Assembly (NCBI GenBank): GCA_945956945.1
Contig: CAMFJO010000002.1
Location: forward strand, 1-14,244
Direction of reading: 5' to 3'
DNA: 14,244 nucleotides
From: an uncultured Legionellales bacterium
GTDB lineage: Bacteria > Pseudomonadota > Gammaproteobacteria > UBA1113
Part shown: piece by piece, positions 1-7,560 of the stretch
How positions within the stretch are numbered: the stretch's first letter is position 1
How the letters are laid out: each line of letters starts with the position of its first letter
Notes under the pieces: generated by a model
Seen by the model: the letters and a program-made list of their open reading frames with translations, nothing else
Told to the model about the DNA's origin: nothing
The model's database searches: none
Position numbers and translations under genes: made by a program

Positions 1-109
1 CTGTAGACATATCACAACGACGTGCTAAATCGGAAATGGATACATCCTGCTTGTTCATTAGATTTCGTAAATTATTAGATACGATAGATAAAATTTGTTT
101 TTTTTCCAT
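1..109 (-). CDS. N-terminal fragment of an XRE/Cro-type helix-turn-helix repressor (cut by window edge)
   Basis: The minus strand reads 36 codons from an ATG at 109 to the window edge, so only the N-terminus is visible. It starts MEKKQILSIV and contains ISDLARRCDMST (about residues 25-36), which has the spacing of the first part of a lambda-repressor-like helix-turn-helix: a helix with L-A, then the turn, then the start of the recognition helix. It is divergently transcribed from a csrA-like gene, with about 200 bp of shared regulatory DNA between them. From memory, Legionella integrative conjugative elements carry a prophage-repressor-like gene (LvrR type) near lvrA, lvrB and a csrA paralogue, so this may be the repressor of such a module. 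The family call is fairly safe. The link to mobile-element control is inference. Confidence 0.65.
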   Translation of the reverse strand, partial: MEKKQILSIVSNNLRNLMNKQDVSISDLARRCDMST

Positions 110-576: not shown

Positions 577-783
577 ATGAATTTGGATGATATAAAAACA
601 TTGTCCTTGCCGAATTATATCGCGCTTTTAATTTCGGAGCGTTTAGGTCTAGAGGCTAATCAAGAACAAGTAGATATACTGGAGGCTTTGGTATTGATGG
701 CCACTTATCCTAAAAAAGTAAAAGATAGAATAATTAAGAATGTGTTGGAGATGATGAATTGGCCTATTTTTTTCTGTATTTAA
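577..783 (+). CDS. Small hypothetical protein downstream of csrA
   Basis: A 68-residue open frame starting MNLDDIKTLS with a purine-rich ribosome site (GGGAGAG at 561-567, AGG at 570-572). The protein looks mostly helical, with leucines and charged residues through the middle (YIALLISERLGLEA, then QEQVDILEALVLMA). It ends in a hydrophobic WPIFFCI tail. I do not recognise the family. It is co-directional with the csrA-like gene, 71 bp downstream beyond a hairpin, and probably belongs to the same regulatory module. An opposite-strand frame overlaps the same stretch, but the ribosome site and direction favour this one. Confidence 0.5.
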   Translation: MNLDDIKTLSLPNYIALLISERLGLEANQEQVDILEALVLMATYPKKVKDRIIKNVLEMMNWPIFFCI

Positions 784-823
784 AAAATAAAGATTTACGT
801 AATGAGCAATGAGGGAATGCGAT

Positions 824-1012
824 ATGAATAAAGAATTATTTTTTGACGGAATGCTTTTCATGGATCTATATAATGTCAGCTTTATGATTCACTCAATATC
901 TGCTGTTGTGGTTAACGATCCATTTTTTAAGAGTGCTAATGTGTCAGCGCCATTATTTGGCCAGCAGAGTGATGCAAACAAAATCAGAAAACATTCTAAC
1001 CACTTATTTTAA
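824..1012 (+). CDS. Small hypothetical protein ending at the gpmI junction, possibly truncated
   Basis: A 62-residue frame starting [10 protein letters not shown]. It is preceded by GAGGGA at 811-816, 7 nt upstream, which is why I prefer this ATG to the one 15 nt earlier. The sequence is hydrophobic in the middle ([12 protein letters not shown]) and ends KHSNHLF. The stop codon lies only a few bases before the point where gpmI-like sequence begins on the other strand. The natural C-terminus may therefore have been lost, with the last residues being junction DNA. No family is recognised. It is probably the third gene of the csrA-containing block. Confidence 0.4.
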
Positions 1013-1124
1013 GCAATGGCTTTTTGGCCGCTGCAATGGCATTGTGTGCGCTGTCTTCTTTATAACCCCAACCATCCAGTACGATGAGTACCAAGGGTTT
1101 GGGTCGGGTAGGGGCTATGGCCAT
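996..1124 (-). pseudogene. gpmI: 5' remnant of gpmI, cofactor-independent phosphoglycerate mutase
   Basis: Read from an ATG at 1124, the minus strand gives [10 protein letters not shown], then [14 protein letters not shown] and [10 protein letters not shown]. This is the unmistakable start of GpmI, which interconverts 3- and 2-phosphoglycerate in glycolysis. Asp17 of LDGWG is the metal-binding aspartate of the alkaline-phosphatase-like core. Similarity stops after Pro36 (codon at 1017-1019). Six unrelated residues then lead to a stop at 996-998. The family is about 510 residues long, so over 90 per cent is missing, including the active-site serine. A good promoter and a ribosome site (AGGA, about 8 nt before the ATG) remain. 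In E. coli gpmI is next to and divergent from yibN, and yibN lies 1.6 kb to the right here, so this is the native locus cut by an insertion or rearrangement. Whether a complete gpmI or gpmA exists elsewhere cannot be seen. Confidence 0.85.
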
Positions 1125-1154
1125 TTTTTGTATCCTGGAATGTCGTTAGGCTCC

Positions 1155-1184
1155 ATTCTAATGCTTTTTTAGGGGTGATGTCAC
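1155..1184 (-). promoter_or_regulatory. Promoter of the truncated gpmI
   Basis: On the minus strand GTGACA (1184-1179), an 18-bp spacer and TAGAAT (1160-1155, 5 of 6 consensus) precede the gpmI start at 1124 by about 30 bp. A perfect 10-bp direct repeat TAGGGGTGAT (1170-1179 and 1189-1198, 19 bp apart) overlaps the -35 side and could be a regulator site. Confidence 0.5.
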
Positions 1185-1206: not shown

Positions 1207-2436
1207 TCAGTCCAGCATAGAAAAAGGAATTGCCCAAAGGTTGTCCCCAAATGCTAAACATTTATCGCCATTGTATAGCACTATACCACTTATCCAGTTT
1301 TTACCAGTTAACCCCGCTAGTTTTCTTAACCCATGAAAATCCTGATTAAAGATCGTATGGCTTGCCTTGACTTCGATACCAATAATTTTATGCGCGTGAC
1401 TTTCAAGGATAAAGTCAATTTCCATTTTATCTTTGTCACGATAATAATATATATTCCATGGTTCTTCTGTGAAAGAGATAGTTTTTAATAATTCACCATA
1501 TACCCATGTTTCCAATAATGCACCAAAATCAGATTTATTCCATTCAACACTTTCTATCGTCATTCGATTAAGGCTTGCCAAAAGACCACTATCCAAAAAG
1601 TGAATTTTTGGCGTTTTTATAATTCGGTTTAATGCATTGCTGTGCCACGGTTTTAATCGATGTACTAAAAACAAGGTTTCAAGTAAGCCAATATATTTTT
1701 GTGTTGTTTTAGAATCTAAATTTAACTGCCCACCAATTTGGGTAAAATTGGTTAATTTTCCAGACTGCTGTGCAAGCACCTCTAAAAGTCTTGGCATCTC
1801 GACTAATTTTTCGATTGAGGAAATATCTTTTATGTCTCTCTCTACAATTGCTTTGATATAAGATCCAGCCCATGCGCTACGTCTGGCTGGATCCGAGCGC
1901 AAGAGCATCTCTGGATATCCACCAGTGAGTACCCGTGAAATAATTTCTAATTGCTCTGAAGGTATTTGTTGAGGCCAAGATTGATTTTTGGCGTGACTTA
2001 GAAAAAGGTTTTCTCGATGACTCATTTCAGTCAGAGAAAGTGGTAATAAGGTTAATATTTCCATGCGCCCAGCCAAACTATCACCGACTTGAGGTAAAGC
2101 CAGAAGATTGGCTGATCCAGTTAATAAAAAGCGTCCGGGCTGCCTGTTTTGATCGACTGAGAATTTAATCGCACGCAATAATTCTGGTGCTCGTTGAATT
2201 TCATCTATGATTGCTTTATCTATGCTATTAATAAAACCGATGGGATCTTGTTTTGCTGCATTGAGTGTATTGTCGTCATCTAAAGTGTAATAAGATAAAG
2301 ATGGTGAATATTGTTTCACTAAGGTTGTTTTTCCGGATTGTCGCGGGCCATTAATTAAGACCACGGGTGTATCTTGCATCGCAATTTCCAAGCGGGCCTT
2401 CAGTTTTCTTGAAAAATCATTTTTAGTCGTTTTCAA
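1207..2436 (-). CDS. AAA-type ATP-binding protein with C-terminal DUF4143 nuclease-like domain
   Basis: 409 residues. The AAA_14 domain has Walker A GPRQSGKTT (30-38, Lys36), Walker B AIIDEIQ (75-81) and a sensor-like LLTGSAN (104-110). A winged-helix-like middle follows, then a DUF4143 C-terminus in which Asp341, Glu355 and Lys357 (EIDFILE then GIEVKAS) have the order of a PD-(D/E)xK fold. The start is a TTG at 2436, because AGAGGA lies 5 nt upstream and the first in-frame ATG would remove the N-terminus up to residue 20. Family members are scattered, horizontally spread genes of unclear function, often compared with toxin-antitoxin or mobile genes. It sits between the gpmI promoter and yibN, which are adjacent in E. 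coli, so it looks inserted. An array of 22-bp repeats lies just upstream. Confidence 0.85.
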   Translation of the reverse strand: MKTTKNDFSRKLKARLEIAMQDTPVVLINGPRQSGKTTLVKQYSPSLSYYTLDDDNTLNAAKQDPIGFINSIDKAIIDEIQRAPELLRAIKFSVDQNRQPGRFLLTGSANLLALPQVGDSLAGRMEILTLLPLSLTEMSHRENLFLSHAKNQSWPQQIPSEQLEIISRVLTGGYPEMLLRSDPARRSAWAGSYIKAIVERDIKDISSIEKLVEMPRLLEVLAQQSGKLTNFTQIGGQLNLDSKTTQKYIGLLETLFLVHRLKPWHSNALNRIIKTPKIHFLDSGLLASLNRMTIESVEWNKSDFGALLETWVYGELLKTISFTEEPWNIYYYRDKDKMEIDFILESHAHKIIGIEVKASHTIFNQDFHGLRKLAGLTGKNWISGIVLYNGDKCLAFGDNLWAIPFSMLD

Positions 2437-2726: not shown

Positions 2727-3149
2727 ATGGGCGCGTACATCACATTTGCCAAGAGTCATTGGCTATTGTCACTGGCATTTTTAGTTGTGTTGGTGGCTTT
2801 GGTGGTCAATGAAGTCATTATCAGAATGCGTGGATTGAGCAAAATAAACCCACAATCACTCGTCAATTTGATGAATCGGGAACAGGCATTGGTTTTGGAT
2901 CTGCGTTCTCTAGAAGAATTCAAAGCAGGCCATATCGCCGGCGCCAAACACGTGGACGCGGTACAATTGACCAATAAGATAGACAATTTATTAAAGGACA
3001 AAAATCATCCGGTGATCCTCGTTTGTTCTCAAGGACAAAAAGCCTTAAGTCATGCTCAGCAGGTGGAAAAATTGGGTTATCAGCGTGTGTATTATTTGGC
3101 GCAAGGGATAGCGGCGTGGCGGCAAGATAATTTGCCTTTGGTCAAATAA
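2727..3149 (+). CDS. yibN: Membrane-anchored rhodanese-like sulfurtransferase, YibN type
   Basis: 140 residues. One hydrophobic segment (about 12-31, LLSLAFLVVLVALVV) anchors the protein in the inner membrane. A single rhodanese domain follows, with VLDLRSLEEFKAGHIAGA (about 56-73) and the active-site loop VCSQGQKA, where Cys100 would carry the persulfide, then YYLAQGIAAW near the end. Single-domain rhodaneses move sulfane sulfur; the exact substrate of YibN is not settled. The start is supported by AAGAGGT at 2716-2722. It is the first gene of the order yibN-grxC-secB-gpsA known from E. coli, with grxC 14 bp downstream, a pairing that suggests thiol or redox chemistry. Length and domain are normal for the family. 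Confidence 0.9.
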   Translation: MGAYITFAKSHWLLSLAFLVVLVALVVNEVIIRMRGLSKINPQSLVNLMNREQALVLDLRSLEEFKAGHIAGAKHVDAVQLTNKIDNLLKDKNHPVILVCSQGQKALSHAQQVEKLGYQRVYYLAQGIAAWRQDNLPLVK

Positions 3150-5023: not shown

Positions 5024-5136
5024 AGCTCCTGATAAGTATAAGAATAATTAAAAGAGATTGTATTTAGTAGCATTATAAGTTAAAATTCTTATTCATTTAG
5101 GAAACGTATAATTAAAAGTTATATTGCAACTATTTG

Positions 5137-5150
5137 AATTGTATACAATT
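5137..5150. promoter_or_regulatory. Perfect 14-bp palindrome in front of the repeat-protein gene
   Basis: AATTGTATACAATT is a perfect palindrome ending 19 bp before the ATG at 5170. In DNA it could be the operator of a dimeric regulator. In RNA it would make at most a weak hairpin next to the ribosome site. Function is not known. Confidence 0.4.
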
Positions 5151-5169
5151 ATTAAAAGAGAGGGTAAGC

Positions 5170-7560
5170 ATGAGTAGTGAAGATCAAAAAGGCATTATTT
5201 CGCCTGCAGCAATTCGCGCCGAAATTGGCGCCGAAATTGGCGCAAAGTTTTTCAAGCCCTCTGATAAACCCGCCAAGCGCGAAGATACACGCCAACGGCT
5301 GAGTGCCGACAAGCAGCAAACAAAAGAACAGCTGGCAGCCTTGTTAGGTGCCAAGAAAAATTCTCCTAAACCGCAAGATTCTCCTGTGGTGGCTACACCT
5401 TCAGATCCTGTTATAAGTGATATAGAAACAGCTTCAATCCCAACACCACCACCATTACCAGAAACATTAACAGCAGAAGAGAAAAAAGCAAGACGCGCAG
5501 CGCAAGAAGAAAAGCGCAGAGCAGAACAAGCAGAACAAGAAAAACGCGAAGCCGAGAAAAAATCAGCAGAAACCCCAGCAACGCCCCAGCGAAAAAACTC
5601 TATGGGTCCCGTTATATCGAATGAGCTTAGAGCGGCAATGGCGGCGCTTAATGCCAAAGTGACCGGAAACCATGAGGATGAAGAGGAGTGGGATGAAGAA
5701 GAAGATGCCGCAGTATCAGTGTCACCCATAGTAGCAACGGCTGCAGTCAATGCGCCCATCCCGCCACAAGAACCAACCCGTGCTCCAGAAGTTTCTGTCA
5801 CATCTGCACCGACAGTGACAAACCCTGCAGTTAAAACCGATGATAGAGCCGCGTTGTTACAAACTATACGAGAAGGTGTTCAGCTCAAGAAACGCGTTCT
5901 CCCTCAAGAGCAAGATAAAGTAGTTGCAGCGGCCACGGTCGTCCCCTCCGATGAGAAAGTGGAGCCTGCAGCCGTTTCAGAGGTTGTTAAAGCAGAGCCA
6001 CAGTTATCTGAAAATTTGTCAGCCGACTTAGTACAAGACGATAAGGCAGAGTTGGAAGCTGTTGAGGTTACACCCACTAAAGAAGAAGCAGTAACATCTA
6101 CTGAAGTAGATCCATTAACCCCTTCAACTTCAGAGGTTGTTAACGCCGAGCAGCCGTTATCGGAAAATATATTAGCCGATTCACTCCAAGACGATAAGGC
6201 AGAGTTGGAAGCTGTTGAGGTTACACCCACTAAAGAAGAAGCAGTAACATCTACTAAAGCAGATCCCTCAGCTCCCTCAACTGCAGAGCTTGCTACAGCA
6301 AAGCCGCAGTTACCTGGAGATTTATTAGCCGACTTGGCGAAAGACAATAAGGCGAGCTTAACACCTGTTGATGTCAAACCCACTAAAGCAGAAGTAGTCC
6401 CATCTTCTCTACCTGAAGCCGCTGCACCGGCCGTTCCCACGGTTAAAGCATCTGATGTTCTTGATGAGATGCAGCAAAATGCGCGCTTTAAAAAAGCAAA
6501 AGAGGATGCGAACAACCAGCCAGTTCAATCTACTGCGCCCGTCGTAGAAGCGAGCAGTGATCCCAGCAAGAATGAATGGAATAAGGGGTTTAATAGAATC
6601 CGTCAGCGCAATATCCCCTTTCAGTATGTTCCTGAGGCGGATCTTAAAAAAGGAATTGAAGCGTTTAATCAGAAAAAAGCAGCGAAAGAAGCAGCGAAAG
6701 AAGTAGGTCCAAGCGCTGTCAAAACAGTAGAATCAGCGCCAAAGCCAGAACCGACAATTGATCCGAAACCGGCTTCGACTGTCGATACTGATCGTGATTA
6801 TGCTTTAGCATTACATCTGGATGAATTACAACGCTCACCGAATGCAAGCGATCGCCAGTTGGCTGAAAATCCCGAGTATATCCGTCAACTGCAACACGCC
6901 TACGACAACAACAATACGAGAGACACCAAGGCTTTCAATCAGATGGATCTTCATGCTCAAAAAGAAGAGCGACGTCAAAATCTGGAAAAAACCTATCAGC
7001 CAAGACCGCAATCCCAGAAAAAGAGCTCTAGGGATTTTTATAGTCCACAATCCTCTATGCTGCGGGCACCCCGTATGCAGCCGCAAAGTCATCAGGCAGC
7101 ACAACCTGCGATGGCTCAAAGCGCGAGAGAATTGTATATGATGCAATCGATAACGTTTTTGATGGTCACTCATATGCAAATAAGCTCTTTTGAAACCTCT
7201 GCAAGTGTTGCGTCACATCCTTCTGCTTGTAGTGCCAGCTTTTTTATGTCTTATACCCACATTTGTCTGTCTCAGACTCAATCTTTGTCGGTGGGTAAGG
7301 ACGGATCGGTGTCTTATAGTACGAGTCAATCCTTATCTTACACCCAGATGAATATCGCTGGTGTGGATGATGGTAAAGGTAATCTCTCTTATAGTGCTGC
7401 GGCCGTAGCTTATCAGCATCATAGCCGCGCCTGTTCGTTTTTTCCAGGTCAGGCTAAAGAGGCTGCTCCCTCTGTCGGTGCTCCACACCATTCCCTCCGT
7501 TCTCTTATGGATAAAGTTGAGCCGATAGGATCGCCCGCTACGACGATGAAAGTACGGTAA
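5170..7560 (+). CDS. Large low-complexity protein with 51-residue repeats, function unknown
   Basis: 796 residues from the ATG at 5170, chosen because AGAGAGGG stands just before it; an ATG 12 codons earlier has no such site. I do not recognise it. Visible parts: an N-terminus with a short AEIGAEIGA repeat; a Lys/Glu/Arg/Ala-rich helical or coiled-coil stretch (about 104-134); an acidic patch EDEEEWDEEED (169-179); three repeats of 51 residues (270-320, 321-371, and a diverged 372-422) rich in Glu, Val, Pro and Thr; a Lys/Gln-rich middle; and a C-terminal part (about 640-796) rich in Ser, Tyr, Met and His with four Cys, where SLSVGKDGSVSY and GKGNLSYSAA resemble beta-hairpins. No signal peptide or membrane span is seen. 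Disorder plus repeats would fit a secreted effector, a surface protein or a scaffold, but nothing here decides. Confidence 0.85.
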   Translation: MSSEDQKGIISPAAIRAEIGAEIGAKFFKPSDKPAKREDTRQRLSADKQQTKEQLAALLGAKKNSPKPQDSPVVATPSDPVISDIETASIPTPPPLPETLTAEEKKARRAAQEEKRRAEQAEQEKREAEKKSAETPATPQRKNSMGPVISNELRAAMAALNAKVTGNHEDEEEWDEEEDAAVSVSPIVATAAVNAPIPPQEPTRAPEVSVTSAPTVTNPAVKTDDRAALLQTIREGVQLKKRVLPQEQDKVVAAATVVPSDEKVEPAAVSEVVKAEPQLSENLSADLVQDDKAELEAVEVTPTKEEAVTSTEVDPLTPSTSEVVNAEQPLSENILADSLQDDKAELEAVEVTPTKEEAVTSTKADPSAPSTAELATAKPQLPGDLLADLAKDNKASLTPVDVKPTKAEVVPSSLPEAAAPAVPTVKASDVLDEMQQNARFKKAKEDANNQPVQSTAPVVEASSDPSKNEWNKGFNRIRQRNIPFQYVPEADLKKGIEAFNQKKAAKEAAKEVGPSAVKTVESAPKPEPTIDPKPASTVDTDRDYALALHLDELQRSPNASDRQLAENPEYIRQLQHAYDNNNTRDTKAFNQMDLHAQKEERRQNLEKTYQPRPQSQKKSSRDFYSPQSSMLRAPRMQPQSHQAAQPAMAQSARELYMMQSITFLMVTHMQISSFETSASVASHPSACSASFFMSYTHICLSQTQSLSVGKDGSVSYSTSQSLSYTQMNIAGVDDGKGNLSYSAAAVAYQHHSRACSFFPGQAKEAAPSVGAPHHSLRSLMDKVEPIGSPATTMKVR
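5977..6435 (+). repeat. Three 153-bp intragenic repeats
   Basis: In-frame units start at 5977, 6130 and 6283. Units one and two share a 69-bp stretch without a single difference (6034-6102 and 6187-6255), which also preserves synonymous codon choices, so the duplication is recent or homogenised by recombination. Unit three keeps the protein pattern (PQLPGDLLADL, PTKAEVV) but has diverged in DNA. Copy number probably varies between strains. Confidence 0.9.

Follow-up and report, generated by a model that had tools for sequence, protein, structure and literature searches.

A gpmI 5′ end that stops after codon 36 beside yibN in an uncultured Legionellales bacterium

The gpmI remnant among described systems

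In Legionella, csrA paralogues are carried on integrative elements, and the locus described here resembles these in that a csrA paralogue lies beside a divergent HTH frame; however, no conjugation or integration gene is recognised in the csrA block, which is cut by the contig end. The other close relation is to the cofactor-independent phosphoglycerate mutase GpmI (iPGM; TIGR01307/PRK05434; PF06415, PF01676), with which the locus shares the protein start, an upstream motif and the yibN neighbourhood, while differing in that codons 1–36 only are kept, without the catalytic serine and without the iPGM_N domain. PMC2964296 describes how phosphoglycerate mutases have been patchily lost and displaced within genera; the likeness to such losses, and to ordinary rearrangement remnants, lies in a core gene cut short at its ancestral locus, whereas no replacement mutase is found in the present genome, which is incomplete, and loss is not demonstrated. 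The window, that is, the whole stretch of DNA analysed, is the complete contig C2 (14,244 nt) and belongs to a 1.31-Mb genome, assembled into 267 contigs, that is 66.4% complete and 0.1% contaminated.

The remnant occupies positions 996–1124 of the minus strand and reads as a frame of 42 residues made up of orthologue codons 1–36, six unrelated codons and a stop. Its assignment to gpmI, proposed earlier in a sequence-only reading of this DNA, is confirmed by profile matches and by alignment with four orthologues: PRK05434 matches with E 7.5e-9 (34.6 bits, model positions 5–35) and TIGR01307 with E 1.3e-7 (model positions 1–30), scores which for a 42-residue fragment lie far below the whole-protein cut-offs of 862 and 330.65, respectively, and Pfam Metalloenzyme narrowly passes its cut-off (24.7 against 24.3 bits). 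On the strength of these NCBIfam iPGM and Metalloenzyme scores, the match is beyond chance. The full-length gpmI of G001, a genome of the same genus, finds the remnant as its sole match in the studied genome (query residues 3–37, 57% identical, E 2.5e-8). The alternative that the frame is an unrelated conserved gene of 42 residues was rejected, as the protein database gave nothing but the frame itself (on two contigs) and one gpmI fragment with an adapter-like end.

An alignment of the 5′ region of gpmI covered five genomes of the genus (G000, the studied genome, and G001–G004). Over codons 10–35, the remnant is identical to the four orthologues at 16–19 of 26 positions, the intact genes agreeing among themselves at 15–20; over codons 36–41, identity drops to one position in six, the proline of codon 36, against four to six among the intact genes. 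The abrupt end of an otherwise intact similarity, also noted in the earlier reading, thus stands, and it places the junction (unstranded) at 1013–1018, with 1017 as the last base of codon 36. Judged by its sequence, the remnant is free of excess divergence and bears no sign of being an old pseudogene; with no decay visible, the break must be either recent or not a true break of the gene.

The region upstream (1133–1170, minus strand) holds a TTAGAAT-containing motif at about 1155–1170 and an AGGA ribosome site at 1133–1136. TTAGAAT is common to all five aligned genomes and an AGGATA-type ribosome site to four, G002 being the exception, so that the conserved 5′ region claimed beforehand is upheld, with a putative promoter role for the motif. 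A transcript from the old promoter would yield a 42-residue peptide keeping the first metal-binding aspartate: the remnant contains LDGWGY, which, through the G001 orthologue, aligns with D12 of PDB 1EJJ, presumably a metal-binding residue. By the same route, the last residue of the remnant falls on P31, and S62, which we take to be the catalytic serine, is missing together with everything beyond it; iPGM_N (PF06415) is absent from the remnant. Because the catalytic serine and this domain are lacking, the predicted product, which could still be made from the old start, would have no mutase activity, and nothing in the analysis supports another function for it.

Neighbourhoods on the two sides of the junction

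The start of gpmI had been described as still lying beside yibN, and comparison bears this out. A yibN-like rhodanese gene (2727–3149, plus strand), recognised by its rhodanese domain, is the ancestral divergent neighbour that adjoins gpmI in relatives; the two genes are divergent neighbours in six other genomes of the family, namely all four of the same genus (G001–G004), G005 and G009, an arrangement that we take to hold in E. coli likewise. In G006, gpmI and yibN lie on one contig and one strand, with their matched stretches about 3.2 kb apart; in G007 they are on different contigs, and in G008 neither gene is matched. Downstream of yibN in the window, the genes for glutaredoxin, SecB and glycerol-3-phosphate dehydrogenase are collinear with those of relatives.

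The interval between gpmI and yibN varies in content and length in all five genomes compared, from 683 to 8095 nt. In the window it measures 1602 nt and holds an AAA_14/DUF4143 ATPase gene (1207–2436, minus strand; PF13635 1.2e-44, PF13173 2.2e-26); it has 683 nt with a DUF2147 frame in G001, 703 nt with no frame of 80 aa or more in G002, 2266 nt with an AlbA_2 frame in G003, and 8095 nt in G004, where an ABC transporter, two ATPases, a csrA and others are found. A simple inversion of the interval was set aside by reasoning, the remnant having kept its orientation to yibN. Between the ATPase gene and yibN, tandem 22-nt repeats with five unit starts occupy 2466–2575 and are absent from the other loci scanned. 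Farther along the window, a frame of 808 aa (5134–7560) contains long low-complexity stretches; its match to WH2 is weak (E 0.0025, 17.9 bits, cut-off 23.1), and NCBIfam gives none. Rfam has no match within the window.

To the left of the break lies a csrA-paralogue block of a type that recurs at several sites in the genus. Its first frame, truncated where the contig begins, is the start of an HTH protein (2–109, minus strand; a weak HTH_26 match, E 0.0032, 18.1 bits, cut-off 22). It is followed on the plus strand by a divergent CsrA paralogue (308–505), which exceeds the cut-off of PF02599 (65.9 against 27 bits) and stays under the NCBIfam CsrA equivalog cut-offs (63.6 against 73 and 60.2 against 70.1). 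Next comes a 68-codon frame (577–783, plus strand) of a small csrA-side protein family (phmmer 3.5e-13, residues 1–55), which diverges from its relatives near the end and shows a one-base gap near 743 in DNA alignments. The last frame before the junction has 67 codons, or 62 from an inner ATG (809–1012, plus strand), and ends four to five bases short of the junction; a protein search returned only the frame itself, and neither NCBIfam nor Pfam matches it.

The csrA stretch 278–478 is 80% identical to a same-genus locus on a contig of G004 (G004:C44), and foreign contamination of the left side is ruled out by this DNA identity. The core stretch from yibN to gpsA is 72–75% identical to G001, G003 and G004, and less so to G002; because the csrA-side identity is about that of the core divergence between species, both sides of the junction are assigned to one lineage. 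The GC content of the csrA block is 34%, against 44–46% in core stretches.

The missing gpmI body and other mutases

Searches for the part of gpmI from codon 37 onwards and for gpmA or gpmB, both proposed in the earlier reading, returned no gpmI body anywhere in the assembly and no PF00300 mutase; PF06415 has no match here, though 6 of the 14 control genomes match it. The genes next after gpmI in relatives are an EnvC-like one, which NCBIfam matches best to EnvC (190.5 bits, cut-off 270), and a ctpA-like one for a C-terminal processing protease (over the TIGR00225 cut-off). In the studied genome, envC is not found and the G001 protease finds nothing, in a search run without a positive control. 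The G001 DNA that starts at about codon 34 of gpmI and runs through the EnvC-like gene, the ctpA-like gene and the frame after them yields just four matches, of 29–34 nt, whereas the G001 genes farther downstream have counterparts on contigs C34, C152 and C216, where nothing but a contig end interrupts the homologous frames. On C216, a HipA-like gene (G000:C216 854–2101, L251) lies between genes ordered differently from G001. A G001 stretch of about 160 nt (L060 2489–2652, G001:C7) matches many separate places in the studied genome at 73–94% and is a dispersed repeat.

In each of the four same-genus genomes, PF00300 gives one short match, to the first 68–77 of 194 positions. Since this family is absent or only shortly matched, iPGM seems to be the only phosphoglycerate mutase of the genus. 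The G004 gene (L040 13841–15397, G004:C40) carries an in-frame TAA after residue 106, behind which the frame reopens; this stop may be an error, given the low stated coverage of 2.45x. G008, the genome with no gpmI match, encodes a 206-aa PF00300 protein that passes the Pfam cut-off; its assignment as a dPGM was not upheld, as all 19 of its NCBIfam matches fall under cut-off.

The break had been expected to cost the cell its cofactor-independent mutase unless another copy exists. No gpmI body or PF00300 member turned up, but this falls short of establishing that the enzyme is lost: the assembly is only 66% complete, and what is missing takes in genes downstream of gpmI, as would follow if the region had simply gone unrecovered. 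With a third of the genome missing, the absence of gpmI is weak evidence.

Origins of the junction and csrA copies in relatives

The earlier reading had left a choice between an element integrated inside gpmI and a rearrangement that removed the rest of the gene. Within the part of the block that this contig covers (1–1016), no sign of an integrated element was seen in the form of a recognised integrase or transposase, element ends, a target duplication or a second junction. Among all explanations, we lean towards a genuine rearrangement breakpoint that cut gpmI short next to a variable interval. The orthologous gpmI 5′ end stands at its ancestral place; a deletion or translocation would have set the breakpoint after codon 36 and joined the gpmI start to a block of csrA paralogues from its own lineage, and we infer that this join exists in the cell. 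The iPGM match with its abruptly ending orthologue alignment, the yibN synteny in six family genomes, the shared lineage of the two sides and the variability of the gpmI–yibN interval in five of five genomes all argue for it, as does the lack of any alternative contig overlapping the junction in the studied genome. The junction-spanning 42-aa frame is, moreover, recorded on two contigs, which are possibly not independent. If the break is real, the species has lost what seems to be the only phosphoglycerate mutase of its genus, which would bear on its carbon metabolism and lifestyle.

What weighs against a real breakpoint largely speaks for a chimeric join made in the library, in amplification or in assembly, which would have fused an intact gpmI to a csrA locus lying at another place in this genome; in the cell the gene would then be whole, within the unrecovered third of the genome. 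The assembly is fragmentary, and a 19-nt transposon-adapter core occurs at 36 places in it, 34 of them verified as no more than 58 nt from a contig end, the other two being on C191 and C212; where it is present, frames that run into the end of a contig are therefore artefacts. Adapter sequence also forms the right end of the window's own contig (14194–14244). The gpmI body, envC and ctpA are missing together, as plain incompleteness would give, the remnant is undecayed, and in the protein database the 62-aa frame of the left side is found on six contigs against two for the junction-spanning frame, a difference that may reflect other flanks or merely gene calling. On the other hand, both sides belong to one lineage, the junction frame does recur on a second contig, the homologous frames on C34, C152 and C216 are cut only at contig ends, and the adapter pattern is not found at the junction. 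We regard a chimera as a real possibility, though probably not the answer; if it is one, it is a warning against inferring gene loss from one contig end in a fragmentary genome. Whether breakpoint or chimera, the finding belongs to a known kind, a broken gene of the ordinary sort in the one case and an artefact in the other.

That a mobile module carrying csrA entered gpmI at codon 36, leaving the gpmI body beyond the far end of the insert and off the contig, is very unlikely in our judgement, although the low GC of the block and the multiplication of csrA in relatives would suit it. Matches to csrA (PF02599) number 14 in G003, 16 in G004 and 5 in G006, and one or two in G000, G001, G002, G005, G007, G008 and G009; the copy number varies from 1 to 16 between species of the genus. 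A small companion frame, mostly of 76–83 aa, lies near csrA in seven compared loci, the window included, and an HTH-S24 protein is divergent to one csrA/companion-frame pair. However, the similarity among csrA copies stops near 800, away from the break, so that no module boundary coincides with it; among the frames in 1–1016 no integrase or transposase is recognised, the block being cut by the contig end, and the gpmI body was not found anywhere in the assembly. The block has no match in plasmid and phage collections (one plasmid record matches the ATPase only, phages none), and no 25-mer from the csrA side or the junction occurs in viral contigs. No second junction is found on the contig, and no flanking repeat pair qualifies as element ends or target duplication, only chance-level repeats occurring near 1016. 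One candidate duplication, GCAATGGC at 1013–1020 and 1033–1040 inside a 20-nt repeat (80%), was rejected as a weak coincidence, because each copy abuts gpmI-like sequence or falls inside it and because, following GCC, 15 of the 1011 csrA-side 5-mers would reproduce an 8-mer of the remnant. The csrA block and the DUF4143 ATPase were also set aside as a single element, since the ATPases of this type that a few other csrA loci have nearby are 23–43% identical and without the 22-nt repeats.

Still more improbable, and offered as speculation, is that the csrA block, companion frame and HTH gene form a self-spreading regulatory cassette, multiplied in part of the genus, whose movement broke gpmI, so that for lower glycolysis the species must rely on its environment, perhaps a host cell. 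The csrA expansion is a better lead than the gpmI break itself. Among the csrA comparison loci (L220–L249), HTH-type proteins resembling that of L056 adjoin csrA in L248, as they do in L056.
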